Source: Anaerolineales bacterium
GTDB taxonomy: Bacteria > Chloroflexota > Anaerolineae > Anaerolineales > UBA4823
Direction of reading: 5' to 3'
Length of the DNA: 64,000 nt
NCBI GenBank assembly: GCA_003105035.1
Contig: PQAL01000043.1
Coordinates: forward strand, 1 to 64,000
The notes below the pieces were generated by a model that was given only the letters and a program-made list of their open reading frames with translations, did not search any database and was not told where the DNA came from. Position 1 is the stretch's first letter. The number at the start of each line of letters is the position of its first letter. Both the position numbers and the translations under genes were made by a program. Below are positions 2,142 through 17,159 of the stretch, piece by piece.

Positions 2142-5100
2142 TTATTCGTTGCCGTCATTATTCCCGTAATGCATGGCTGCCATCTGCTTATATAAATCCC
2201 AGCGTGATTTAACATCCTGCTGGGCTTGTTTCAGCAGCATTTCGGCTCGTTCTTCATCAGTCTGGGTCAGCATCTTGTAACGCGGCTCATTGTAGGCGTA
2301 CTGCTCCAATGGGATGGAGGGATCCTTTGAGTCAATCGTTAAGGGGTTCTTGCCTTCTTCAACCAGCCTGGGATTGTAGCGGTAGAGCGGCCAGATACCT
2401 GATTGGACAGCCAGTTTCTGTTGTTCTAATCCCCTGCGCATATCAATGCCATGGTTGATGCAATGGCTGTAGGCGATGATCAGGGATGGTCCGTCGTGTG
2501 CATCAGCTTCCAGGAAGGCATTCAGGGTCTGCTGATCGCTGGCTCCCATGGCCACACGCGCGACATACACATACCCGTACGACATGGCGATTAACCCCAG
2601 GTCTTTTTTCGGCATCCCCTTGCCGTTGGCTGCAAATTTCGCCACGGCACCCCGCGGGGTGGATTTTGAGCTCTGACCGCCGGTGTTGGAATACACTTCG
2701 GTGTCTAGCACCAGCATATTCACGTTGCGGCCCATGGCTAAAACGTGGTCCAGGCCACCATAGCCGATATCATAGGCCCAGCCATCACCACCCAGGATCC
2801 ACACGCTCTTGCGGACCAGCAGGTCGGCCAGGCTGAGTAGATCGCGGGCGCGCGGGTCCTTCACACCATTCAGGCGGGTCTTAAGCAGGTCAACCCGCTC
2901 GCGCTGTTCCTTAATCCCCGCTTCGCTGGTCTGGTCGGCATTCAGCAGGCCAGTTACCAGTGGCTCCCCGACCAGGTTGGCAAGCTGGGGGAGCAGCTCA
3001 CGGGCGTACTCGTTCTGCTTGTCGATCGTCAGGCGGAAGCCGAACCCAAACTCGGCGTTATCTTCGAACAGCGAATTCGACCACGAGGGACCACGCCCGT
3101 CCCGGTTGACCGTCCAGGGGGTGGTGGGCAGGTTACCGCCGTAAATGGACGAGCATCCGGTGGCATTGGCCACCAGCAGGCGGTCGCCGAACAGCTGGGT
3201 GAGCAGCTTGACGTAGGGTGTCTCGCCGCAACCGGTGCATGCCAGCGAGAACTCAAACAAAGGTTCAAGCAGCTGGGTGTTTTTCAGGGTGCGCAGGTTG
3301 ATTTGTGCTCGGTCCACAACCGGCAGAGCCTGGAAGAACTCCCAGTTAGCTGATTCTTGCTCGCGCCGGGGTAGCTGCTCAACCATGTTGAGCGCTTTGC
3401 GACCCACCTGGCTCTTGTCTTTTGCAGGGCAGGTTTCCACGCACAAGGCACATCCGGTGCAGTCTTCTGGAGACACCTGGACGGTGTACTTCGTGTCGGG
3501 GAATTCCTTGAACTTGGCATCCATCGACTTGAAGGTTGCGGGGGCATTCGTGAGCTGCTGTGGCTCATAAATTTTCGCCCGGATGACTGCATGCGGGCAG
3601 ACGAAGACACACTTCCCGCATTGGATGCACAGGTCCGGTACCCATTCGGGCATCTCGAGCGAGATGTTGCGTTTTTCCCATTGGGTTGTGCCCAGTGGAT
3701 AAGTTCCATCCACGGGGAAAGCACTCACCGGCAAGTCGTCACCTTCCAGGCCGATGATCTTACCCAAGACATCCTTCACGAATTCAGGAGCTTTTTCTGG
3801 CACTTGCGGCCGGCGAGTGATCGTGCTGGTCACCGATTTGCCTGCCAGGTTAACTTCATGTAGGTTAACCAGCGTCTGGTCAACTGCGTTGTAATTCTTC
3901 TTGACCACTGCCTCGCCAAATTTTGAATAGCTCTTCTTGATACCTTTTTTGATCTGGGTAATGGCCTCATCGCGAGGCAGCACACCGCTGATGGCAAAGA
4001 AACAGGTCTGCATGACGGTGTTGATGCGCACACCCATGCCGGTCTGCTTGGCCACTTCATACGCGTTGATCACGAAAAAGCGCAGTTTTTTCTGCAGGAT
4101 GGTCTGCTGGACCTCGCGCGGCAGGTAATCCCACACTTCATCGGGTCCGTATAGGCTGTTCAGCAGGAACACGCCGCCGGTCATGGCGAACTTGAGCACA
4201 TCGAAGCGCTCGAGGAAGTTGAACTGGTGACAGCCCACAAACTGGGCGTGGCTGATCAGGTATGGCGCATGGATCGGCTTGGGGCCAAAGCGCAGGTGCG
4301 AGATCGTGTTGCCCCCCGACTTCTTAGAGTCATACACGAAGTAACCCTGGGCGTAGTTGTCGGTTTCCTCGCCGATGATCTTGATCGAGTTTTTGTTGGC
4401 GCCTACCGTGCCATCCGCACCCAAGCCCCAGAATACGGCCCGCGTAATTTCAGGTGTTTCGATATTGAAACTGGGATCAAATTGCAGGCTGGTCATGGAG
4501 ACATCATCCGTGATGCCCACGGTGAAGTGATTCTTCGGCTCGGCCTTGCTCATCTCATCGAAGACACTCTTGACCATCGCAGGTGTGAATTCTTTGGATG
4601 AAAGCCCGTATCGACCGCCGATAATTTTGATTTGACGGCCGCCTTCATAAATTGCATTCACCACATCCAAATAAAGCGGCTCTCCAGCTGCTCCAGGTTC
4701 CTTGGTGCGGTCAAGCACAGCCACAGTCTTAACTGTCTTTGGCAGGGCATTCAGCAGGTGCATGTTGGAAAATGGGCGGTAAAGGCGTACTTTTATAACC
4801 GCCACCTTCTCTCCCTGCTTGTTCAGGTATAAAGCAGTTTCACCCGCGGTTTCCGCGCCGGAACCCATCAGGATGATCACGCGCTCAGCATCGGGAGCTC
4901 CGACATAATCAAAGAGGTTATATTTGCGCCCGACCGTGGCAGCAAATTTGTCCATCACTTTTTGGACGATTTCCGGGCATGCGCTATAATAGGGGTTGAC
5001 CGCCTCACGGCCCTGGAAATAGACATCTGGGTTTTGAGCGGTTCCACGAATCATGGGGTGGTCAGGCGAAAGGGCTCGGCTCCTGTGCGCGCGGATTAGC

Positions 5101-5693
5101 TCGTCAGAGATCATCGTGCGAATTTCATCATCGCTGAGGATCTCGATTTTATTGACTTCTGCGGAGGTTCTGAAGCCGTCGAAGAAGTGCACGAAGGGTA
5201 CGCGGGCTTCCAGGGTGGAGGCCTGGGCGATCAGTGCGAAGTCATGGGCTTCCTGTACCGAGTTGGATGCCAGCAGGGCAAACCCGGTCGAGCGGGTTGA
5301 CATCACGTCGGAATGATCCCCAAAGATCGACAGGGCGTGCACGGCCAGGGAACGGGCTGAGACGTGGAACACCGTCGAGGTGAGCTCACCGGCGATCTTA
5401 TACATGTTAGGGATCATCAGCAGCAATCCCTGCGAGGCAGTAAAGGTGGTGCTCAGGGCACCTGCCTGCAGCGCGCCATGAACGGCCCCCGCTGCACCCC
5501 CTTCAGATTGCATCTCGACTACCAATGGGATTGTCCCCCATAAGTTGGGGCGCTTCTTGGCTGACCATTCGTCGGCATACTCTCCCATTGTGGATGACGG
5601 GGTGATGGGATATATTGCGATCACCTCGCTGGTCTTGTGGGCAACATAGGCAGTCGCCTCGTTGCCATCAATATTGGCGGTATGTTTTTTCAT
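2142..5693 (-). CDS. nifJ: Pyruvate:ferredoxin (flavodoxin) oxidoreductase
   Basis: A 1183-residue single-chain PFOR that oxidises pyruvate and CoA to acetyl-CoA and CO2, passing electrons to ferredoxin. The N-terminal pyrimidine-binding domain has [17 protein letters not shown] near residue 30. Two 4Fe-4S cluster motifs follow ([12 protein letters not shown] near 690 and [12 protein letters not shown] near 745). The TPP domain has [16 protein letters not shown] near 970 and [12 protein letters not shown]. The four Cys for the proximal cluster are visible in [20 protein letters not shown] and [10 protein letters not shown] prefer ATG 5693 (GGAG eight bases upstream) over an in-frame TTG two codons earlier. 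Oxygen-sensitive chemistry of this kind points to an anaerobe. Confidence 0.97.
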
Positions 5694-5902
5694 TAACAAT
5701 GCTCCAGTTTTGGAATACGCACTTAGCGTTAGTTATATAAATGATACCCAAGAGACTAACTAACTAGTTTAGCCGTACCAGGAGGAAACAGACAGTTATA
5801 TATGGCATAAAAAACACCTGTCCCCTGTCATATTTCAATTTCAGCTGGTGAGTGGACTGGTTCATGAAAATTTGCCTGGCAAAAAACTGCCGCATAAAAC
5901 TG
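5694..5902. other. Divergent intergenic region, PFOR versus the 5918 operon
   Basis: About 210 AT-rich bases separating two divergent transcripts. Toward the PFOR gene I see several TATATA-like elements but no convincing paired promoter. An AACTAGTT palindrome lies near 5763-5770, inside repeated CTAA units, and could be an operator, but with weak support. Nothing else is recognised. Confidence 0.35.
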
Positions 5903-5911
5903 TGCTATACT
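5903..5911 (+). promoter_or_regulatory. Extended -10 promoter, leaderless start for gene 5918
   Basis: TGC followed by TATACT, with six bases to the ATG at 5918. The start site would fall on the initiating A, and no ribosome binding site is present. Confidence 0.55.
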
Positions 5912-5917
5912 TTACTC

Positions 5918-6184
5918 ATGAGTGAGAACCAGCAGAACTGGAATAATTGGGCGCGTGCATTGCATCGCTGGGGTGTGGAGAATGGAGTGGCTTCACTGCT
6001 TGAGATCGCTGGCTCGCTCAATGTGCTGCTGGCGCAGGTCCTGTATATCAGTCAACCGGTGCTTACCGGGGCGGTCTCGTCCAGGTCACTGCAAGCCTTC
6101 GCACAGGTGCTCGAAGACCCTGAAGATCGACGTCAATTTATCGCCATTTTGAGAGAGGTTTCCACGCGTGGAACAAGCGCTTAG
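5918..6184 (+). CDS. Small hypothetical protein, first gene of the ASKHA operon
   Basis: An 88-residue protein not recognised from any family. It begins MSENQQNWNNWARALHRWGV, is helical in character, has no cleavable signal peptide, and ends with the stretch LEDPEDRRQFIAILREVST. The start at ATG 5918 is chosen because a promoter -10 sits six bases upstream; an in-frame ATG at 5852 would lie upstream of that promoter. Its 3' end overlaps the next gene by 17 bases, so it is translationally coupled to a DUF6754-like membrane protein and is likely part of the same process. Confidence 0.6.
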   Translation: MSENQQNWNNWARALHRWGVENGVASLLEIAGSLNVLLAQVLYISQPVLTGAVSSRSLQAFAQVLEDPEDRRQFIAILREVSTRGTSA

Positions 6185-6932
6185 TGCTCTCAATACCTAC
6201 TTAGCTCTGGCGCTGATCTTGGCAGGCTTGGGTTTAATTTTGTTCTTCTATCTTGCACCGAATATCCCCAAGATCACCCTGCGCACCATCCAGGCCTTCT
6301 CCCATTTTCGCCGCGAAGTCGATCTGGCCGTGGAGGCCGGCAAGCGCCTGCACATCTCGCTGGGTCGAGGTTCGATCAATGACCTGCAGGGTGGGGCGGC
6401 TTTACTTGGGCTGACGATCCTCGATCGGTGTGCCCGGGCTGCCTCGAATAGCGACCGCCCTTCGGTTGTGACGTCTGGCGACAGCGTGGTCACTGTCTTG
6501 AGCCAGGATACACTGCAAAGCACCTTTGGCAGCCTGGCTGCGGAGCAGCGATACGATCATACTAATGCCCGCCTCTCTGGCCTCACCCCCATGGCGTATG
6601 CGGCGGGAGCCTTGCCTGCAATCCATGACGAGCAAGTGTCTGCCAATATCCTGGCGGGTCATTTTGGAACCGAGGTGGCTTTACTGACCGAAGCGGCTGA
6701 GCGTAGCCGTTCACTGACAGTCGGTGGGACGGATAGCATCTCAGCCCAGGCCGTCCTGTATGCAACGTCTGACGAGCCCCTGCTGGGCGAGGAGCTGTAT
6801 GCCTCCGGAGCTTATCTCGGGGAGGATAAAGTCCATTCGGCCAGTTTGCGTATGCAAGATATCCTGCGCTGGGTGATCGTGGGTGCCATTTTGTTCGGTG
6901 CTATTCTTAAATTATTGGGAATCCTGGCATGA
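6168..6932 (+). CDS. DUF6754-like membrane protein
   Basis: A 254-residue protein with one membrane helix at each end (about residues 10-30 and 230-252) and a soluble middle domain. The middle contains GAALLGLTILDRCARAAS near 78-95 and AAEQRYDHTNARLSGLTPMAYAAG near 123-146. It resembles the DUF6754 proteins I know from Chloroflexota, whose function is not established. The start is GTG 6168 with GAGAGAGG upstream. It overlaps the gene before (17 bases) and shares ATGA with the gene after, so its subunit ratio with neighbours is probably fixed by coupled translation. The assignment rests on recall, not a search. Confidence 0.6.
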   Translation: MEQALSALNTYLALALILAGLGLILFFYLAPNIPKITLRTIQAFSHFRREVDLAVEAGKRLHISLGRGSINDLQGGAALLGLTILDRCARAASNSDRPSVVTSGDSVVTVLSQDTLQSTFGSLAAEQRYDHTNARLSGLTPMAYAAGALPAIHDEQVSANILAGHFGTEVALLTEAAERSRSLTVGGTDSISAQAVLYATSDEPLLGEELYASGAYLGEDKVHSASLRMQDILRWVIVGAILFGAILKLLGILA

Positions 6933-7552
6933 AGAAGGTTTTGCCGATCACCAATGCGGTCATTGCCATCGCTGCCGGGGCATTGGTCTTATTAGGGTAT
7001 TTTTTCCCGGGCTTTTTCGGCAAAATCCAGTCCACCTTGATCGGCTGGGCCATCATCCTGGCCGGGTTTGCGGTGCTATTGGGGATTTTTAACCTGGCAA
7101 TGGTACATTGGAAGAAAATCACCAGCCATGATAAGAACCAGGGGTATAGCATTGTATTGCTGGTATCGCTCGTCCTCACCATCCTGCTGGTTGGCATCAG
7201 TGGTCCCACCGGCTCACTGTCACTGTGGATATTCAATACCTTCCAGGTACCAGCCGAGATCAGCCTGCTAGCAGTATTGGCGGTTGTCCTGATCTATGCC
7301 GTAGCGCGCTTGCTCTCCAGGCGACCGAAATGGTACACCATCTTGTTCCTGGCAACCGTGCTGTTGGTTTTACTGGGGTCCGCACCCCTCTACTTCTTAG
7401 GTGAGATAAACATCCTCAGCACAATCCGCGCATGGTTAGCCCAGGTACCTGCAGCCGCTGGGGCGCGTGGCCTATTACTGGGGGTTGCCCTGGGAACTGT
7501 CGCGGCCGGCCTGCGCATCCTCATCGGAAGTGATCGCCCGTATGGTGGATGA
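6929..7552 (+). CDS. Six-helix hypothetical membrane protein
   Basis: A 207-residue integral membrane protein, family not recognised. Six hydrophobic segments are visible, roughly at residues 5-27, 32-60, 73-93, 107-130, 134-153 and 173-196. Short basic loops (RLLSRRPKWY near 130) suggest cytoplasmic sides. Its ATG overlaps the stop of the DUF6754-like gene by four bases, and the next gene starts four bases after its stop. It is therefore a core member of the operon and probably an assembly partner of the neighbouring membrane proteins. Confidence 0.6.
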   Translation: MKKVLPITNAVIAIAAGALVLLGYFFPGFFGKIQSTLIGWAIILAGFAVLLGIFNLAMVHWKKITSHDKNQGYSIVLLVSLVLTILLVGISGPTGSLSLWIFNTFQVPAEISLLAVLAVVLIYAVARLLSRRPKWYTILFLATVLLVLLGSAPLYFLGEINILSTIRAWLAQVPAAAGARGLLLGVALGTVAAGLRILIGSDRPYGG

Positions 7553-7556
7553 ATAG

Positions 7557-9479
7557 ATGGCTGAAATCATTTGCCCACTGTGCGGAAAGCCCAATCCAGA
7601 AGAGCTGGATGAGTGCAAATATTGCCAGGCTCCGTTAAAATCGGGTGGTTTCATTGCCTCCCCGGAGGGGGACGATGAAATTGCCAGGATATTTTCCGCG
7701 CCTCAAGAAGATCAAAAACCTGCGGAAAAACCTTCAGCAGTACCATTTACCCCTGAAGGCCTGGAGGAAGCGATCCCCGATTGGCTGAAGGAGACCGAAG
7801 CTGGTTTCCTCGCCTCAGTTGAACCGAAACCCCCTGAAGAAAAGCCTAAAGAATTCACACCGGACGAGATTTCAGCCCAAATCGATGCATTGATCAGCCC
7901 ACCTTCATCGTCTGAAGAGTCAGCTAAGAAAAGTGTTGATGACGAATGGCTGGCTAGCTTGCTCAACGAAGCCGGGGTGAGTGAAACGGGTTCGGATGAA
8001 AGCTTGAGTGAGCCAGAAGAGGAACCTCTTGCCGAGCAAGAACCTGCGCAGGAGGAAGAGGCTATTAGTGCACCAGCCCTTCAAGAGCCGGAAGAGGAAT
8101 CGCTCCCACCCGCTGTTCCTGCCGAAAAGCCTGCCTGGCTGACCAACCTTGAGGCTGCCTCGACCATTAAGCTGGAAGGCGGCATCACTCAAGCTGAGGA
8201 AGGGCTGCATGAGCCCGTGGCCGAAGAACCTACTGAGCAAAGCGAGCCCGAACCGGCTGAACCACCTGAGTGGTTAACCAAATCCATGCCGGAAGGTGCG
8301 CCTCCCGCGTCTCAGGAACAAGAAGGAGGCCTCAGTCCTGCCGAGCTCCCCGGTTGGCTGGAGGCCCTTCGCCCCGCTGAGGTTTTAGAGCCCAGTGGAC
8401 CAGTGGAGGATGTTTCGACCGCCGATCTTGTCACAGCTGGGCCGTTGGTTGGGTTGCGTGGGGTGATCTCATCCCATCCGTCAGCCATTCGCGCCCGGAA
8501 GCCGCCCACCTACTCTATAAAACTGCGCGTCACCGATGAGCAAAAAGAGCGCGTGGAGCTGATGGAGGCCCTGCTGGCTGATGAAGAAAAACCGACCCCG
8601 CTTCCTTCGCAGCCTGTCATAAGCTCCCGCAATATCTTCAGGTTGGTGATCGGTCTGGCGTTATTATTACCGATCCTCTGGGTGATCATCATGGGTAGTC
8701 AAAACGCTGCCCAACCTCAAGCCAGCAGCCTCCCCGGGCTGGATGATTTTACGCTGGAAATCCAAAAGCTACCCTCCGGGGCACCCGTGTTGATCGCATT
8801 TGACTACGAAGCTGGTTTTTCTGGGGAGCTGAACCTGGCCATCACCAGTGTGCTCACCCAGCTGATCAATAAAAACGCCTACCTGACCCTGGTGTCAACC
8901 AGCCCATCCGGACCGGCATTGGGCGAAAGCATGGTCAAGGCGGTTTACTCCGGTTTAGTTGGGAATTCCCAGGCTTATACAGATTATGCTGACCTCGGCT
9001 ATATTCCCGGAGGAACCTTGGGCCTGCGCGGCCTGGCGACATCGCCGAAGACGGTCATGCCTTATTCATTGAGTGGTTATGATGTTTGGGCTGCCCCGCC
9101 GTTAAATGCCATCATGAGTATCCAGGATTTTAGCGCGGTGATCATCCTGACCAATGATGCTGACACTGCCCGTATCTGGATCGAGCAGGTAGGTACGCCC
9201 TTGCGTCAGAGCGGCCGGCCGCTTTTATTCGTGTCGAGTACACAGGCCGAACCGCTAATCCTGCCATATTACCTGTCCGCGCCAGAGCAGGTTCAAGGCA
9301 TCATCTCAGGCCTGGCGGGAGGCATAGCCTATGCAAACTCGGTTGGCAGTCTCCCGCAAAATGGTGCCTGGGATGCCTATAGTATTGGCATAAGTGTATC
9401 GATCGTTGTCATTCTCGTCGGGAGTATCGTCAGCGGTGTAGGCAAGACGCTGCCCTCCAGTAAGAAGAAGGAGAACTAG
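7557..9479 (+). CDS. Zinc-ribbon membrane protein with acidic PxWL-repeat linker
   Basis: A 640-residue protein with an unusual architecture. Residues 6-23 form a zinc ribbon (CPLC and CKYC). Residues 40-350 are a Pro/Glu-rich, low-complexity region in which a short motif around Trp-Leu recurs five times (Trp at 76, 131, 194, 239 and 267, usually Pro-x-Trp-Leu). A membrane helix at about 360-380 leads to a folded domain of some 220 residues, probably outside, and a second helix near 610-628 precedes a Lys-rich tail. The cytoplasmic part looks like a docking arm. It lies mid-operon, nine bases before the next gene. Function unknown. Confidence 0.6.
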   Translation: MAEIICPLCGKPNPEELDECKYCQAPLKSGGFIASPEGDDEIARIFSAPQEDQKPAEKPSAVPFTPEGLEEAIPDWLKETEAGFLASVEPKPPEEKPKEFTPDEISAQIDALISPPSSSEESAKKSVDDEWLASLLNEAGVSETGSDESLSEPEEEPLAEQEPAQEEEAISAPALQEPEEESLPPAVPAEKPAWLTNLEAASTIKLEGGITQAEEGLHEPVAEEPTEQSEPEPAEPPEWLTKSMPEGAPPASQEQEGGLSPAELPGWLEALRPAEVLEPSGPVEDVSTADLVTAGPLVGLRGVISSHPSAIRARKPPTYSIKLRVTDEQKERVELMEALLADEEKPTPLPSQPVISSRNIFRLVIGLALLLPILWVIIMGSQNAAQPQASSLPGLDDFTLEIQKLPSGAPVLIAFDYEAGFSGELNLAITSVLTQLINKNAYLTLVSTSPSGPALGESMVKAVYSGLVGNSQAYTDYADLGYIPGGTLGLRGLATSPKTVMPYSLSGYDVWAAPPLNAIMSIQDFSAVIILTNDADTARIWIEQVGTPLRQSGRPLLFVSSTQAEPLILPYYLSAPEQVQGIISGLAGGIAYANSVGSLPQNGAWDAYSIGISVSIVVILVGSIVSGVGKTLPSSKKKEN

Positions 9480-9487
9480 GCCCGATT

Positions 9488-10210
9488 ATGTTAGCGCAGA
9501 TCAGCCAGCTGGCAGATCCGATTGGAGCGATCATCGGTTTTATCCTGACGATCATGGTGCTCAGCTATATCATAGGCGACAATTTTCTTTTCCGCCTGGC
9601 GATTCACATATTTATTGGTGCTGCATCCGGGTATGCTGCCATCTTGATCATTTACAACGTACTTTGGTACCAGGTACTCGTGCCGATCCTCCAGATATTT
9701 GCCACCGGTAACCTGGATGGTTTGCTGCCCTATGCGGTCCAGGTTGCTCCCGCTGTCCTCCTGGGTCTTTGGATGATGACCAAGCTGTCTCCCCGCCTAT
9801 CCCGCTATGGAACCCCGGTCCTGGCTTTCCTGACCGGTGTTGGGGCCGCCACGGTGATTGCCGGTGCGGTAATGGGCACGATTTTCCCCCAGGTTGGGGC
9901 TTCCGCTAATCTGCTCAACAAAAATTACGCCCCTGCTGAGATGAGCAGCATCGTCGGGTGGTTTATTAACGGGTTGGTAGTTATCGCCGGCACCGTTACC
10001 ACGCTGATCTACTTTCAATTTGGCCTGAAGCGCCGGGAAGACGGCCTGCCTGCCCAACGACCGGTTGTTTTGGAATACTTATCGACCGTTGGTCAGGGTT
10101 TCATCATTATTACCCTGGGAGTCCTGTTTACTGGGGTGTATCTTGCTGCTCTCACGGCGTTGATTGATCGGATCGGTTATCTTTGGAATGTCATTATGCG
10201 CTTTTTCTAA
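9488..10210 (+). CDS. Multi-helix hypothetical membrane protein
   Basis: A 240-residue integral membrane protein of unrecognised family. Six or seven hydrophobic segments are visible: about 10-33, 38-62, 66-78, 84-101, 108-130, 151-175 and 203-228. It lacks charged catalytic motifs that would suggest an enzyme. It sits eight bases after the zinc-ribbon gene and twelve before the ASKHA gene, inside the operon. It probably forms the membrane core together with the six-helix protein at 6929. Confidence 0.55.
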   Translation: MLAQISQLADPIGAIIGFILTIMVLSYIIGDNFLFRLAIHIFIGAASGYAAILIIYNVLWYQVLVPILQIFATGNLDGLLPYAVQVAPAVLLGLWMMTKLSPRLSRYGTPVLAFLTGVGAATVIAGAVMGTIFPQVGASANLLNKNYAPAEMSSIVGWFINGLVVIAGTVTTLIYFQFGLKRREDGLPAQRPVVLEYLSTVGQGFIIITLGVLFTGVYLAALTALIDRIGYLWNVIMRFF

Positions 10211-10222
10211 TGTGAAATCGTT

Positions 10223-11989
10223 ATGCCTACCTCACTCATTGATGCTGACTCAGTCCTGGCGATAGAAATTGGTACGGTTAACACACGGGTGATTCTTTTC
10301 GACGTGGTGGAAGGTCGCTATCGTTTTCTGGGGCAGGGTAGTGTGCCCACCACCATAGGTGCTCCCAGCAACGATGTCTCCGTGGGTGTGAAAGCCGCTC
10401 TAGACCAGCTGCATGATATTACTGGTCGGGTGTTGTTTAACGCTGAAGGACAGCTGGTCATCCCCTCACAGCCCAGTGGGGTTGGTGTGGATGCCTGTGT
10501 GGCGACGGTATCTGTTGGACCTCCGCTAAAAGTAGTGGCGCTCGGTCTGCTGGAGGATGTTTCGGCAGAGAGCGCAAGAAATCTGGCTTCCACCACATAT
10601 GCCAGGGTAGTCGAAACGATGAGTTTGAACGACCGGCGAGATACAGTGCAGCGTTTGGATTGCATCCTGCAAGCCCATCCCGATCTGATCGTTGTAGCCG
10701 GCGGCATGGAGGGTGGTGCCACGAAATCGGTGCTTAACTTACTCGAAGCAGTTGGATTGGCTTGTTACCTGATGCCAAAGGACCTGCGCCCCGAAGTGCT
10801 TTATGCCGGGAATTCTGCCCTTGTGAAGGATGTACAGGAATCCATCGGCAGCCTGGTGAATTTACACACTGCCCCGAACGTTCGCCCCTCCTATGAGAGT
10901 GAGCAGCTCACCCCTTCTCAGCCTGCCCTGGCACAGGTCTATCGCCTGGTACGATCGCGGCAAATCCGGGGCATCCTCGAAGTGGATTCGTGGACTGGCA
11001 ACCATTTATTGCCGGCTGCAACTGCCTTTGGCCGTACCATCCGTTACATTAGTAAGGAATATGCCAAGTCCCGTAAGGGAGTGTTGGGTATCGATGTGGG
11101 TGCTTCCGCCACGACAGTTGCTTCGGCATTTGCGGGCGATTTGCGCTTGAGTATTCACCCAGGGCTTGGTTTGGGTGAAAACCTGCCCGAAATACTCGAT
11201 ATGTGCTCCCTGAGTGATGTTACCCGTTGGGTCATGGTCGACGTCCCCGATAGTTACGTGCGGGATTACATTTATCACAAAGCACTCTATCCCTCTAGTT
11301 TGCCCATTTCACCGGAGGAGCTGGCCATCGAGCAGGCGATTGCCTGCCAGGCTATGCACCTGGCGGTGAAGCAGGCCAGCAAGGCCTATCCTGCCAATGT
11401 GCCCGGCACACGGTCCAATCTACTTCCCTGGTTTGAGCCGATCATCGCCTCAGGCAGTGTGCTGACCAAAGCACCCAATCGTAGCCAGGCGTTGTTGATG
11501 GTCGTCAACGGATTGCAGCCCACCGGGGTTACCACGGTAGCGCTTGACCGGAACAATCTGGCCGCCTCCCTGGGTGCCACGGCAAGTGTCACCCCACTGT
11601 TGACCATCCAATCCTTGGATGCCACGAATTTTGTAAATTTGGGCACGATCATATCTCCCGTTGGCACTGCCCCGCTGGGTACGCCCATCCTGCGCGTGCG
11701 CATGACAAACGACAGTGGAGCTGAGTCGGAGCAGGAAGTACGACACGGAGCGCTGGCTGTGTTTAAACTACCCGCAGGCCAGGCTGGAACCCTCCACCTC
11801 ACCCCGCTGCATAAATTTGACGTTGGTATGGGAGGGTTTGGCAGAGGTGGCACGGTAAAAGTAATCGGTGGTGCCTTGGGCGTGATTATCGATGCGCGCG
11901 GCCGCCCCCTACGTTTACAAGCGGAGCCTTCCAGGCGCCGGGATTCCCTCAATAAATGGCTGGCTGCCGTCAGCGCGGGGCAGGCATAA
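10223..11989 (+). CDS. MutL-type ASKHA-fold protein (glutamate mutase MutL-like)
   Basis: A 588-residue protein resembling MutL, named from glutamate mutase operons and belonging to the ASKHA (actin/Hsp70-type ATPase) superfamily. Two phosphate-binding-like motifs are seen: AIEIGTVNTRVILFD near residues 13-27 and GIDVGASATTVAS near 290. The C-terminal block ISPVGTAPLGTPILRVRM near 475-492 and the GGALGVIIDARGRPLRLQ block near 551-568 also fit. No glutamate mutase subunit is near, and all other genes of the operon encode membrane or surface proteins. A scaffold or motor role (compare FtsA or PilM) is therefore more plausible here than B12-enzyme reactivation. That role is inference. Confidence 0.7.
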   Translation: MPTSLIDADSVLAIEIGTVNTRVILFDVVEGRYRFLGQGSVPTTIGAPSNDVSVGVKAALDQLHDITGRVLFNAEGQLVIPSQPSGVGVDACVATVSVGPPLKVVALGLLEDVSAESARNLASTTYARVVETMSLNDRRDTVQRLDCILQAHPDLIVVAGGMEGGATKSVLNLLEAVGLACYLMPKDLRPEVLYAGNSALVKDVQESIGSLVNLHTAPNVRPSYESEQLTPSQPALAQVYRLVRSRQIRGILEVDSWTGNHLLPAATAFGRTIRYISKEYAKSRKGVLGIDVGASATTVASAFAGDLRLSIHPGLGLGENLPEILDMCSLSDVTRWVMVDVPDSYVRDYIYHKALYPSSLPISPEELAIEQAIACQAMHLAVKQASKAYPANVPGTRSNLLPWFEPIIASGSVLTKAPNRSQALLMVVNGLQPTGVTTVALDRNNLAASLGATASVTPLLTIQSLDATNFVNLGTIISPVGTAPLGTPILRVRMTNDSGAESEQEVRHGALAVFKLPAGQAGTLHLTPLHKFDVGMGGFGRGGTVKVIGGALGVIIDARGRPLRLQAEPSRRRDSLNKWLAAVSAGQA

Positions 11990-12056
11990 TGGCATTCTTT
12001 GTGCACCCAACTTCTAATAGTCAGTTTTGTGCAGGGCTTGTTTCGGAGAACTAAGC

Positions 12057-13112
12057 ATGCAGGCACCGCTTACGCATTTTATTTCAGCAGCTGCGATCCA
12101 ACGGGAGAGGCTAATGCCTGCCAGCGGGCGAATCGTTGCCAGGCGTGGTCAGCAGGTTAACCCGAACGATGTTGTTGCTGAAGCCATGCTCCGCCCGGAG
12201 CATTTGGTGCTGGATATTGCCAGAGGTTTGGGTCTGTCAGCCAATGATGCTGACCACTATATCCAGCGTCGGGCTGGCGATGAGGTTGGTGAAGGGGATG
12301 TCATCGCCGGACCAGTTGGGCTCGGGCGACGGGTAATTCGCACGCCCCGCTCTGGCACCGTGGTGATCGCCGGGGGTGGCCAGGTATTGCTGGAGCTGGA
12401 AGGCGAATTCACCGAGCTGCTGGCAGGCTATCCGGGGACAGTCGCTGATATTGTAGGTGATCGAGGCGTGCTGATCGAATCGACTGGCTCTCTCCTCCAG
12501 GGGGTATGGGGGAATGGCAGGATCAATTATGGGTTATTGAACCTCCTGGCGCACGCACCTGAGGATGAGCTTACCACCGGGATGATGGATGTGAGCTTGC
12601 GAGGCTCGGTGGTCATGGGAGCGTATTGCGGAGACGAAAGAGTCCTTCAAGCTGGTGAAGAGCTTCCCATTCGCGGCATGATCTTAGCCAGCATGGATTC
12701 TGCGTTGTGCTCAATCGCCAGGGGTTTAAGTTATCCCATTGTGCTCCTGGAAGGTTTTGGAAAGCTAGCCATGAACCCTGACGCGTTCAACATCCTGGTT
12801 TCAGGCTCGCGCAGGGAGGCGGCTTTAATCGCCGAGCCGTGGGATCGGATCAGGAATACCCGCCCCGAAGTGGTCATCAGCCTGCCAGAAGGCGTGCGCC
12901 CCGAGATACCCGCCGAATCGAAACCTTTTGCCAGCGGGCAAACCGTTCGGGTGATCAGCCCACCTTATAAATCGATGGTAGGTACATTGACCAATCTGCA
13001 GGCCGGTTTATCGGTCTTGCCGAGCGGGCTTCGCGCGGAAACAGCCGGTGTTCGTCTGGCGAATGGTGATATCGTCCAGATTCCCCTGGCTAATCTTGAG
13101 GTAATTAAGTGA
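12057..13112 (+). CDS. Hypothetical protein with barrel-sandwich and KOW-like domains
   Basis: A 351-residue soluble protein. The N-terminal third has repeated beta patterns (SGRIVARRGQQVNPNDVVAE, then AGDEVGEGDVIAGPVG and RTPRSGTVVIAGGG), like the barrel-sandwich folds of lipoyl-type or RnfC-type proteins. The C-terminal 60 residues carry a KOW-like motif (GQTVRVISPPYKSMVGTLTN) ending in VQIPLANLEVI. The start ATG 12057 follows CGGAGAA. It comes 67 bases after the ASKHA gene. It could be an adaptor binding the ASKHA protein or a nucleic acid; I cannot decide between these. Confidence 0.55.
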   Translation: MQAPLTHFISAAAIQRERLMPASGRIVARRGQQVNPNDVVAEAMLRPEHLVLDIARGLGLSANDADHYIQRRAGDEVGEGDVIAGPVGLGRRVIRTPRSGTVVIAGGGQVLLELEGEFTELLAGYPGTVADIVGDRGVLIESTGSLLQGVWGNGRINYGLLNLLAHAPEDELTTGMMDVSLRGSVVMGAYCGDERVLQAGEELPIRGMILASMDSALCSIARGLSYPIVLLEGFGKLAMNPDAFNILVSGSRREAALIAEPWDRIRNTRPEVVISLPEGVRPEIPAESKPFASGQTVRVISPPYKSMVGTLTNLQAGLSVLPSGLRAETAGVRLANGDIVQIPLANLEVIK

Positions 13113-13150
13113 AGGTCGGGTAGAATAGGGTTGTGTGAGGAGAGCGAACG

Positions 13151-13777
13151 ATGGCCTTTACAGACATGAACGACATTGAAAACGAGTTGGGTGAGGAAAA
13201 GCCGCCAGAGAGGAATGGCAACCGCACATTTCTGATCATCGCCGGCACTTTAGGTGGGATCATGGTTTTGGCACTGCTCTGCATCGCCGGCCTCGCCTTA
13301 TATCGCTACTTGCCCAGCCAACAGGCAGCCCAGGTGGCAAAAGCTACCCAGGCTGCTCAAGATACAGCTGTGGCGCTCTCTGCCAGCCAGACAGCTTCCT
13401 TACCAACCGCCACAGCTACACGCCGCCCTACATCAACCCCCACCAACACTCCCATGCCTACCAATACACCGGTCGTCGTAATCGTTCCGACCAAATCACC
13501 GACCATGGATGTGGCTGTAGCCACCCGCAATGCCTTGCTCACCCAAACTGCGGTTCACTCAATGGTCACCATCACCTCGGCGGCGCCTACCAGCACCGCA
13601 CCTATCAATGCTACTTCAGTGTCTCAGCAACCCACCTCAACCTTGCCCAGAGCTACCTCAACAGCCCTGCCAGGCACTGGTATCGCTGACGAGTTGGGCA
13701 CTCCTGGACTGGTTGCGGCAGCATTTGCTCTGGTGTTGGTGATCTTTGTTGTACGCAAGTTACGCACCGCTCTCTAG
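13151..13777 (+). CDS. Surface protein with Thr-rich region and LPxTG-like C-terminus
   Basis: A 208-residue protein with one N-terminal membrane helix (about residues 26-48), a long Ala/Thr/Pro-rich extracytoplasmic region (65-175), and a C-terminal tripartite signal. That signal is LPGTG near residue 174, a hydrophobic helix (LVAAAFALVLVIFVV) and a basic tail (RKLRTAL). This is the layout recognised by sortases. A good ribbosomal site (GAGGAGAG) precedes ATG 13151, and TAGAAT near 13118 could be a local promoter. It closes the plus-strand operon before a terminator. No sortase gene is seen in the window. Confidence 0.6.
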   Translation: MAFTDMNDIENELGEEKPPERNGNRTFLIIAGTLGGIMVLALLCIAGLALYRYLPSQQAAQVAKATQAAQDTAVALSASQTASLPTATATRRPTSTPTNTPMPTNTPVVVIVPTKSPTMDVAVATRNALLTQTAVHSMVTITSAAPTSTAPINATSVSQQPTSTLPRATSTALPGTGIADELGTPGLVAAAFALVLVIFVVRKLRTAL

Positions 13778-15446: not shown

Positions 15447-17159
15447 ATGCCCGGTAATCACCAACAGCTGATCGCCATACTCCAAAAGCTCAGCTTATTT
15501 GCTGGCCTGAACGATGGCCAGCTGGAGCAGGTGGCTGGTTATATCCACCCTTTAAACATGAAGGAGGGTGATACCCTTCACCTGGAAGGCACGAAATGCC
15601 CATTTTTTATTATCGTTTCGGGTAAGCTGCGTTTCACATCCCTTAAGAAGGGCATCGAGATTGGTGGTTATTCCTTGAGGGCAGGCGATTTTTGCGGTGC
15701 CGATGTCGTGCTGCGGGGAAAACCTCAAACATTTAACCTCACAGCCTTGCAACCTGCTTTGTTGTTCAGCATCCAGGTGGATAGGCTGCGTTTATTGGTC
15801 AATGCCATCCCATTGCTTACTAAAAACATTAAAAAGCAGGCGGCCTGGTACACCCTAATCCATTCAAAGCCATTTGCCTGGCTGGGGGAGGAAGAGACGG
15901 TAAAGGTTATCTGCCGTAAACATCCAGCCTACCTGTTGGTTCTGGAGCTTGGGCCATTGCTGGCATCTTGGGCTGGGTTGTTGGTGATCTTGTTTGCTTC
16001 GCAGCTAGCTACCACTTCATTCCGTGTGGTGGCGGGCTGGTTTGGCGCAGCGGTGGTGGCTGCCGCTTGCCTTTGGGCGATATGGCGGTTTTATGATTGG
16101 GGCAATGATTATTACATCCTCACCGATGAGCGCATCGTCTGGTTGGAGCGCACGGTGGCTATATATGACAGCCGGCAGGAAGCACCCTTGGTGGCGATTA
16201 AATCTGGAGAGACCAAATCGGGCCTGGTCGGGCGCTGGTTGGGTTATGGAGACCTGATCAACGAGACATTCATGGGGCAGATATTTTTCCGCCACATCGG
16301 GAATCCCGCTCAAATCAAGAGCCTGGTAGATACGGAGCGCAGGCTGGCCCTCGAGCGCCAGATGTCAACGGATATCCATACCATCGAGGGAAAGATCAGA
16401 GAGAAAATCGAGCCATCCCAGGCAGCTACCGTGCCTGTCAACGTGAATGATCAAGTCATGGAGACGCAACCCAACACTCCCTCCCGGCAGGAGACTCAGT
16501 TCCTGCCGGAGAAAATCTCATTCTGGCAGGCCTTACTGGCGCGTTTCCAAATGCGTCGCGAAGTAAACGGGGTGATCACCTACCGCAAGCACTTCTACAT
16601 TCTGTTTCGAATGACCCTTGTACCGGCCGGTTGCACGCTGGCTGCAATCTTTGCCACCAGCCTGTTGTATGCCTGGCGCGTGCAGGGCTTAATCAGTCTA
16701 TGGTCCCCAGGCACAATCCTGCTCGCGGGTGTTGGGTTAACGGTATCGGCTTTCCTGTGGTGGTTGTATAAATTCATCGATTGGAGCAATGATATTTACC
16801 GGCTCACCCCTGAAAAGATCATTGATAGTGAGCGCAAGCCCCTTGGAGATGAGATCACTAAATCCGCTCCACTTGAAAACATCATCGGTTTGGATTACGA
16901 GCGGCTCGGTTTTTTGGGTGTGGTGCTGAATTTCGGCAATGTGATGATTAATATCGGCACCGAAAACAAATTTATTTTTTACGGCATCCATAATCCAGCC
17001 AGGGCTCAGAGCGATATTTTCCAATACATGTTTGAACGGCGTCGCAAGAAGCTGAAGTCAGATACCATGCAAGAGCAGGAACGCGTCTCCAGCTATATTG
17101 CTGCCTACCATCGCCAGGTGGAAGACCTGCATCGACCGAAAGAACCTCCCCAAATTTGA
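15447..17159 (+). CDS. Membrane protein with cNMP-binding domain and two PH-type modules
   Basis: A 570-residue protein. Residues 12-125 are a cyclic-nucleotide-binding fold (LQKLSLFAGLNDGQLEQVAG, then EGDTLHLEGTKCPFFIIVSG). The canonical RxA phosphate cassette is not evident, so ligand binding is uncertain. Two copies of a membrane-PH module follow. Copy 1 has helices at about 163-215 and then FYDWGNDYYILTDERIVWLE. Copy 2 has helices near 390-445 and then FIDWSNDIYRLTPEKIIDSE. The copies are separated by a charged linker (300-350). The ATG has a promoter -10 six bases upstream. The specific role is unknown; sensing at the inner membrane surface is likely. Confidence 0.75.
   Translation: MPGNHQQLIAILQKLSLFAGLNDGQLEQVAGYIHPLNMKEGDTLHLEGTKCPFFIIVSGKLRFTSLKKGIEIGGYSLRAGDFCGADVVLRGKPQTFNLTALQPALLFSIQVDRLRLLVNAIPLLTKNIKKQAAWYTLIHSKPFAWLGEEETVKVICRKHPAYLLVLELGPLLASWAGLLVILFASQLATTSFRVVAGWFGAAVVAAACLWAIWRFYDWGNDYYILTDERIVWLERTVAIYDSRQEAPLVAIKSGETKSGLVGRWLGYGDLINETFMGQIFFRHIGNPAQIKSLVDTERRLALERQMSTDIHTIEGKIREKIEPSQAATVPVNVNDQVMETQPNTPSRQETQFLPEKISFWQALLARFQMRREVNGVITYRKHFYILFRMTLVPAGCTLAAIFATSLLYAWRVQGLISLWSPGTILLAGVGLTVSAFLWWLYKFIDWSNDIYRLTPEKIIDSERKPLGDEITKSAPLENIIGLDYERLGFLGVVLNFGNVMINIGTENKFIFYGIHNPARAQSDIFQYMFERRRKKLKSDTMQEQERVSSYIAAYHRQVEDLHRPKEPPQI

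Follow-up and report, generated by a model that had tools for sequence, protein, structure and literature searches.

What might a row of membrane proteins do around a relative of MutL, a protein known as an accessory of methylaspartate mutase? This question is raised by a stretch of 64,000 nucleotides from an Anaerolineales bacterium of the phylum Chloroflexota (contig PQAL01000043.1, positions 1 to 64,000; hereafter the window), which belongs to an assembly of 4.45 Mb in 43 contigs and holds an operon-like cluster of eight plus-strand open reading frames (ORFs), A to H, at positions 5918-13777 (open reading frame list). Our answer is that this eight-gene set probably builds a membrane complex round the actin/Hsp70-like ATPase F and a string of docking peptides tethered to the membrane by D. 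Two of the observations that led to it, an array of LPxWL-type peptides on D and a core formed by F and G, were not part of an earlier note on this DNA. The features of the cluster are as follows.

5918-6184, plus strand: gene A, 88 amino acids, small protein of no known family, with a homologue in 78 of 100 loci
6168-6932, plus strand: gene B, DUF6754 (PF20539), two transmembrane segments (Pfam, hydropathy)
6929-7552, plus strand: gene C, protein with six transmembrane segments (hydropathy; no Pfam match above cut-off)
7557-9479, plus strand: gene D, 640 amino acids, with a zinc ribbon, a proline/glutamate-rich tail with LPxWL motifs, a transmembrane segment, a Rossmann-like domain and a transmembrane segment
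7572-7625, plus strand: zinc ribbon of D (CPLC...CKYC, residues 6-23; from the sequence)
7773-7787, plus strand: first LPxWL-type motif of D (IPDWL, residue 73)
8346-8360, plus strand: second LPxWL-type motif of D (LPGWL, residue 264)
8691-9383, plus strand: Rossmann-like domain of D, between the transmembrane segments at residues 360-378 and 610-628 (AlphaFold model)
9488-10210, plus strand: gene E, protein with six transmembrane segments (hydropathy; no Pfam match above cut-off)
10223-11989, plus strand: gene F, ASKHA (actin/Hsp70-superfold) protein of the MutL family (PF13941; Pfam span residues 11-463, 10253-11611)
11612-11986, plus strand: C-terminal domain of F past the Pfam span, with a conserved IDARGRPL (profile)
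12057-13112, plus strand: gene G, with an RnfC-like barrel-sandwich domain (about 12186-12404), a swivelling beta/beta/alpha domain (about 12417-12887) and a KOW domain (about 12918-13109)
13151-13777, plus strand: gene H, with an N-terminal transmembrane segment, a threonine/proline-rich stalk, LPGTG at 13667-13681, a transmembrane segment and RKLR near the end

ORFs were called mechanically, and the starts of A and G were shifted to the ATG codons at 5918 (listed at 5852) and 12057 (listed as TTG at 12027), respectively. A and B overlap by 17 bases and B and C by 4 bases, and the remaining neighbours are separated by 4-67 bases, which confirms the tight layout described in the earlier note. 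The single promoter that it had stated was not recovered: a sigma-70 scan gave no site upstream of A and 2 sites in the region, compared with a mean of 5.9 in shuffled sequences. Counted as hydropathy above 1.6, transmembrane segments number two in B, six in C, two in D, six in E, two in H and none in G, whereas A and F each show a single borderline segment; the six-helix protein and the second multi-helix protein noted before are thus C and E. Pfam searches of A, C, D, E, G and H returned nothing above the family cut-offs, and the defence, phage and RNA libraries returned no match at the thresholds used.

Conservation of the cluster in Chloroflexota

The cluster was followed through 100 loci, comprising 20 cluster regions from a sample of 301 Chloroflexota genomes (one of these regions being the window) and 80 named loci that hold the nearest MutL relatives, i.e. 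the best 80 of at least 528 relatives (at least 593 pattern matches) in a scan with a MutL alignment. These best 80 relatives are all from Chloroflexota; among the matches listed, the relatives of the window's F come from metagenome-assembled genomes of this phylum, the closest being that of an Anaerolineales bacterium (65% identity). Two of the loci, L064 and L091, apparently represent one genome, and L080 and L220 are near-copies. With per-gene profiles, which were built on the same 100 loci on which they were counted and of which the best match per locus was taken, A was found in 78 loci, B in 79, C in 79, D in 92, E in 92, F in 100, G in 92 and H in 81. In every one of the 100 loci the detected genes share order and strand, so that gene order, which the earlier note had proposed to check in relatives, is indeed kept.

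All eight genes are present in 65 loci, and 23 of the remaining 35 are cut by contig ends, which leaves L093, L066, L073, L078, L086, L074-L077 and L079-L081 as the 12 that are incomplete without such a cut. L093 contains an assembly gap (100 N) and has F, G and H only. The profiles detected neither A nor H in L066 and no H in L073, L078 and L086, which are untruncated loci with A to G, and in L079-L081 only D, F and, in two of the three, G were detected.

Across the 301 genomes DUF6754 has a Pfam match in 68 (67 above cut-off) and MutL in 160 at E 0.001 (124 above cut-off). A MutL match lies downstream of DUF6754, on the same strand and within 10 kb, in 56 of these 68 genomes, with 2.2-6.3 kb between the matches; MutL is on another contig in 10 of the 68 and without a match in 2. 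Pfam misses some members of the cluster, as in genome G168, which is without a PF20539 match and yet has a B found by profile. B, C and E adjoin F and G not only in the window's class but in several further classes of Chloroflexota. Plasmid records gave no DUF6754, and 9 of them have MutL-like matches, several of them annotated as GlmL; a search of viral contigs found no relative.

A peptide array on the tail of D

D had been described as a zinc-ribbon membrane protein, and both its CxxC...CxxC start and its two transmembrane segments bear this out; 68 of the 92 homologues have the CxxC...CxxC pattern within their first 120 residues, some D proteins being shortened by a contig boundary or by where their start was set. 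The tail that follows is long, rich in proline, glutamate and alanine and judged disordered, and carries a repeat of the form [LIVM]PxW[LMIV], most commonly L-P-D-W-L after E or D. This LPxWL motif occurs 599 times in 87 of the 92 D proteins (7.35 times in shuffled sequences), compared with totals of 0-3 copies for each of the seven remaining families. The tryptophan is required (599 copies, 5.5 expected); phenylalanine at this position is not enriched (10 versus 7.2), which weakens the notion that the motif copies the tail peptide of FtsZ. That it is a common genome motif was rejected, too: a search of the DNA for [LF]P[DE]WL, a form that neither of the window D's own two copies fits, found 26 places versus 12 for the reversed control, and 6 of the 26 code for the motif in the reading frame of an ORF, a single TPR protein accounting for two of these.

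The motif also occurs among 17 D proteins whose loci gave no match for B, C or E (the contigs of L226 and L227 stop shortly before D, on the side where B and C would lie): these proteins contain 87 copies of the motif, with 0.48 expected, and at least two copies are present in 13 of the 17. Because the motif is kept in these proteins, we infer that it belongs with F and G and not with the membrane genes. Judged by eye, a basic aromatic tail (e.g. RRGFIETIRSWFSH) closes 10 of the 17 sequences, and a strongly hydrophobic segment is present in 4; D would be membrane-bound either via its transmembrane helices or, apparently, via a basic amphipathic tail. Soluble variants of D (L079-L081, L219-L225) end in basic aromatic tails (e.g. 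KKRGIFEAIRDWLSR) that resemble membrane-binding amphipathic helices. Similar tails are seen at the end of F in L074-L077, and in L077 the C-terminal extension of F holds two LPxWL-type motifs, at residues 643 and 671.

For the last 330 residues of D, AlphaFold predicts a Rossmann-like domain with a predicted local distance difference test (pLDDT) score of 89.2, which would be extracytoplasmic. Its best VIA match is 1kjn (Z 9.4, root-mean-square deviation (rmsd) 3.3, 141 residues aligned), the Foldseek and VIA matches being common arrangements; a search of solved structures by sequence gave nothing useful for this C-terminal part.

The TPR protein mentioned above (1017 amino acids; G000:C10, L218 8585-11638, minus strand) has its motifs in the middle and is encoded beside an H+ pyrophosphatase gene. 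Relatives of it are present in 23 of 26 genomes, and the motif occurs in 10 of the 23 stretches read (24 loci, of which L247 gave none); for the relatives in longer stretches it was seen in 1 of 7.

F is an ASKHA protein separate from GlmL

F had been recognized before as a MutL-like ASKHA protein, and it is a clear member of the MutL family (214.4 bits, cut-off 27); all 49 aligned F proteins have a MutL match in Pfam at E 0.01 or better. The residues of the ATP site are conserved among these 49 (D15 in 46, G17 in 49, T21 in 49, D291 in 46, G293 in 48 and G411 in 49) and represent what we take to be the phosphate-1, phosphate-2 and adenosine motifs of ASKHA proteins. Judged by its sequence, F is thus an ASKHA protein with a conserved ATP site and a predicted ATPase. 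The Pfam families found across the 49 members are MutL, BcrAD_BadFG and two others, PilM and FtsA not being among them, and searches of solved structures by sequence gave no useful match for F or its C-terminal domain.

Within this family F is separate from GlmL, to judge from its low scores, its own C-terminal domain, its separate branch and the rarity of GlmE. F reaches 94.3 bits with the GlmL equivalog NF040745 (cut-off 475) and 67.9 with TIGR01319 (cut-off 204.05). As a yardstick for the GlmL family we used six proteins, one annotated GlmL and five high-scoring proteins of the phylum, which exceed the TIGR01319 cut-off in 5 of 5 cases and that of GlmL in 3. In a midpoint-rooted tree, which has three F proteins on long branches, the six lie across a branch (100/100, length 1.26) from 45 F proteins; the profile of the C-terminal domain matches 45 of 45 F but none of the six, and an IDARGRPL-type motif is present in 37 of the 45 but again in none of the six. 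GlmE is above cut-off in only 5 of the 301 genomes (24 at E 0.001), so that, as far as this subunit tells, glutamate mutase does not accompany the cluster, an association which according to the earlier note would have refuted its reading. Its statement that no glutamate mutase is present also agrees with the window genome, whose sole GlmE match falls short of the cut-off and coincides with the gene for methylmalonyl-CoA mutase (GlmE alone was searched, GlmS was not); a B12-dependent mutase, which it had advised looking for elsewhere in the genome, is therefore present.

G and the F-G core

F and G are found on the same strand and not more than 300 bases apart in 91 of the 92 loci holding both, and they are adjacent in 19 of 20 additional regions, which had been selected by their MutL matches; L236 is the exception. 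A G match is present in 8 of 25 genomes for which Pfam gave no DUF6754, and F adjoins it in 7 of these 8 (in L281 and L284 G was placed by a separate G search). F and G form a core more persistent than the membrane genes, as it is kept where B, C and E go undetected.

The description of G as a barrel-sandwich/KOW-like protein is upheld by its predicted fold (pLDDT 92.8), which comprises three domains: a barrel-sandwich resembling RnfC 8rbq (64 residues aligned, Z 8.3, rmsd 3.4), a swivelling beta/beta/alpha domain resembling 2hi6 (112 residues aligned, Z 11.2, rmsd 2.4) and a KOW domain resembling 1m1g (53 residues aligned, Z 8.7, rmsd 1.4). At a threshold of E 0.1, a Pfam scan of 46 G proteins lists 15 families, among them RnfC_N (31/46) and KOW (13/46), and no RnfC domain other than RnfC_N. 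When solved structures were searched by sequence, the lysozyme 5i8l came out best, followed by weak KOW proteins; its likeness to G covers 29 residues (E 1.6e-5) around a QGVWGN/GVWGNG stretch near residue 158 (12498-12515) and was judged convergent.

The other membrane and surface genes

A has nine invariant residues (W8, W11, L15, A39, Q40, P47, L65, F74 and L78) in an alignment of 26 sequences, and its homologues in distant loci are found at E 6e-16 to 8e-21. B is a member of DUF6754, as had been suggested (105.5 bits, cut-off 27), and the positive-inside rule places the domain between its two transmembrane segments putatively in the cytoplasm. Searches of solved structures by sequence yielded nothing useful for B or C and a single weak match for E, to a cortical-lytic enzyme (E 0.016). 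The LPxTG-like character attributed to H holds in the strict sense for 51 of 81 homologues, which have LPxTG near the C-terminus, and only loosely for the other 30, which mostly have LPxSG, MPxTG or IPxTG variants. In addition to this C-terminal LPxTG/transmembrane/basic end H has an N-terminal transmembrane segment, and cleavage by sortase is putative; a sortase is present in 18 of 20 genomes.

A membrane-organising ATPase system?

We tentatively read the cluster as a Chloroflexota system, not described before, in which an ATPase organises the membrane: F, perhaps together with G, would dock on the LPxWL array of D. F would bind the LPxWL peptides on the cytoplasmic tail of D, possibly with the help of G, which would act as its adaptor, and F would thereby be gathered at the membrane in an ATP-dependent manner and be coupled to a membrane unit of B, C and E and to the outer domain of D. 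The analogy is to PilM, which couples to a cytoplasmic peptide of PilN and is described as binding a conserved motif in the PilN N-terminus (PMC5805733), and to FtsA, described as binding the cytoplasmic tail of the bitopic protein FtsN (PMC7613929). The envelope in question has been described for Chloroflexota as monoderm by gene content, although some tomograms show several layers or even a diderm appearance (PMC13319060). Surface assembly, export, cell shape or polarity are candidates for the cargo of such a system, and surface assembly is slightly favoured because of the sorting-signal-like end of H and the presence of sortases. Of the envelope-spanning complex that the earlier note had inferred, the ASKHA-centred membrane complex stands as the most economical reading; a role in secretion, surface assembly or division, and one complex of all eight proteins, are hypothetical.

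Somewhat more doubtful is the broader proposal that the system is of an unprecedented kind, in which an ASKHA ATPase related to GlmL, aided by a swivel/KOW adaptor and gathered at the membrane by a multicopy LPxWL array on a membrane-tethered zinc-ribbon scaffold, would drive an envelope-spanning complex of DUF6754 and two new families with six transmembrane segments in many Chloroflexota lineages. We found nothing in the open-access literature on the operon, on DUF6754 or on LPDWL together with Chloroflexi, in agreement with the earlier view that the system is not described, and its novelty would follow from the gene set and the failed membership tests, not from a proven function. If the reading is true, this ASKHA-based eight-gene membrane system could be placed beside the PilM and FtsA machines as a new relative in function, would provide a context for DUF6754 and would caution against taking MutL-family genes of this type for glutamate mutase L. 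Thanks to the LPxWL motif, the central idea lends itself to a direct peptide test.

Several observations weigh against this reading. The D of the window holds just two LPxWL-type copies; the motif is absent in 5 of the 92 D proteins, fewer than two copies are present in 4 of the 17 D from loci without detected B, C and E, and 3 of these 17 lack, by eye, both the basic aromatic tail and any strongly hydrophobic segment. The TPR protein of the window genome carries 8 LPxWL motifs and is unlinked to the operon, and the reader of the motif may thus be elsewhere. At the first ATP-site position, where 46 of 49 F proteins carry aspartate, the F of the window has a glutamate (E15), and F gave no match to the PilM or FtsA families, the window's protein matching MutL alone at E 1 or better. 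G was not detected by profile in L079 and L236, nor downstream in L074-L077, which are from other classes and in which H was also undetected, and genome G217 has a G without an adjoining F. Finally, methylmalonyl-CoA mutase accompanies DUF6754 in 67 of 68 genomes, and B12-binding and/or MeaB genes are located divergently upstream of A in 18 of 75 loci.

Alternative explanations

An alternative that we regard as unlikely is an export or envelope-assembly machine, in which B, C and E would be a channel or transporter, F would power or gate it, the outer domain of D would handle the exported polymer or protein, H would be a client or an anchor, and LPxWL would be secondary. The fixed order of two proteins with six and two with two transmembrane segments would fit such a machine, as would LPxTG in 51 of 81 H proteins, the sortases in 18 of 20 genomes and a convergent phosphogluco/phosphomannomutase gene found downstream in 40 of the 100 loci. 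However, C and E have no transporter family match above cut-off, F, G and the LPxWL array are kept where B, C and E are undetected, and H is undetected not only in the untruncated A-G loci L073, L078 and L086 but also in L066 and L074-L077.

The co-occurrence with methylmalonyl-CoA mutase raises the further possibility that the cluster encodes a chaperone or reactivase for this B12-dependent enzyme, as GlmL is thought to be for glutamate mutase. The enzyme is present in 67 of the 68 DUF6754 genomes compared with 179 of the 233 others (tables compared by hand; the Fisher test ignores kinship), F belongs to the MutL family, and a swivelling domain, as in G, also occurs in diol-dehydratase reactivases. 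Given this co-occurrence and the upstream B12-binding and MeaB genes, a link to a B12 mutase is possible. As an account of the whole cluster a reactivase is nevertheless improbable: a genome that is 99% complete (G064) has the operon without methylmalonyl-CoA mutase, the loci with B12-binding or MeaB neighbours are mostly together on the F tree, pyruvate:ferredoxin oxidoreductase takes the same upstream place in 14 of 75 loci, GlmE is above cut-off in 5 of 301 genomes, and a soluble reactivase has no role for membrane proteins.

Pyruvate:ferredoxin oxidoreductase is encoded upstream of the cluster in the window, too (2142-5699). A further gene of the window, at 15447-17159, encodes a protein with a cyclic-nucleotide-binding domain and transmembrane segments and has homologues in 15 of the 100 loci.

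Most improbable is an accessory role in cell division or shape, with FtsA reading LPxWL, since FtsZ tails in these genomes carry a similar IPxFLR: the FtsZ C-terminus in the window genome (e.g. DLDIPTFLRNR) resembles the LPxWL core and several of these lineages are filamentous, but the motif demands tryptophan without enrichment of phenylalanine (10 versus 7.2), FtsA-family matches occur in 298 of 301 genomes compared with 68 for DUF6754, and no division gene was recognized among the commonest neighbour clusters, only four of which were checked by family search. The same 298 matches rule out that F replaces FtsA. Besides the ftsA-linked ftsZ the window genome has a second, divergent FtsZ-like gene at G000:C14:40926-41210, and several other such genes were seen.

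Comparison with known systems

Among known families, B is a member above cut-off of DUF6754 (PF20539), a family named in no open-access paper that we found. F shares its ASKHA family (PF13941) with GlmL/MutL, the accessory protein of methylaspartate mutase, and with the ornithine Or-4 protein, but differs from them in scores far under the GlmL cut-offs, its separate branch, its extra C-terminal domain and its setting among membrane genes in a phylum in which GlmE is rare. The N- and C-terminal domains of G have the folds of the RnfC/NqrA barrel-sandwich and of KOW proteins such as NusG and Spt5, respectively; in contrast to these, G links the two via a swivelling beta/beta/alpha domain, and RnfC_N is the only RnfC domain among its Pfam matches.

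With FtsA and its partners, the FtsZ or FtsN tail, the system would have in common an ASKHA protein, short hydrophobic-proline-aromatic tail peptides (as in FtsZ) and basic amphipathic tails for membrane binding. It differs in that F has no match to the FtsA model, that FtsA and FtsZ are encoded elsewhere in the window genome, and that LPxWL is specific for tryptophan. PilM-PilN-PilO of type IV pili offers a parallel in the proposed binding of an actin-like cytoplasmic protein to a short peptide in the cytoplasmic tail of a membrane protein with an outside domain. Here, however, the ASKHA family is a different one, the cluster is without a Pfam pilus match, and the domain of D is Rossmann-like, not ferredoxin-like; moreover, D presents its peptide as a multicopy array together with a zinc ribbon.

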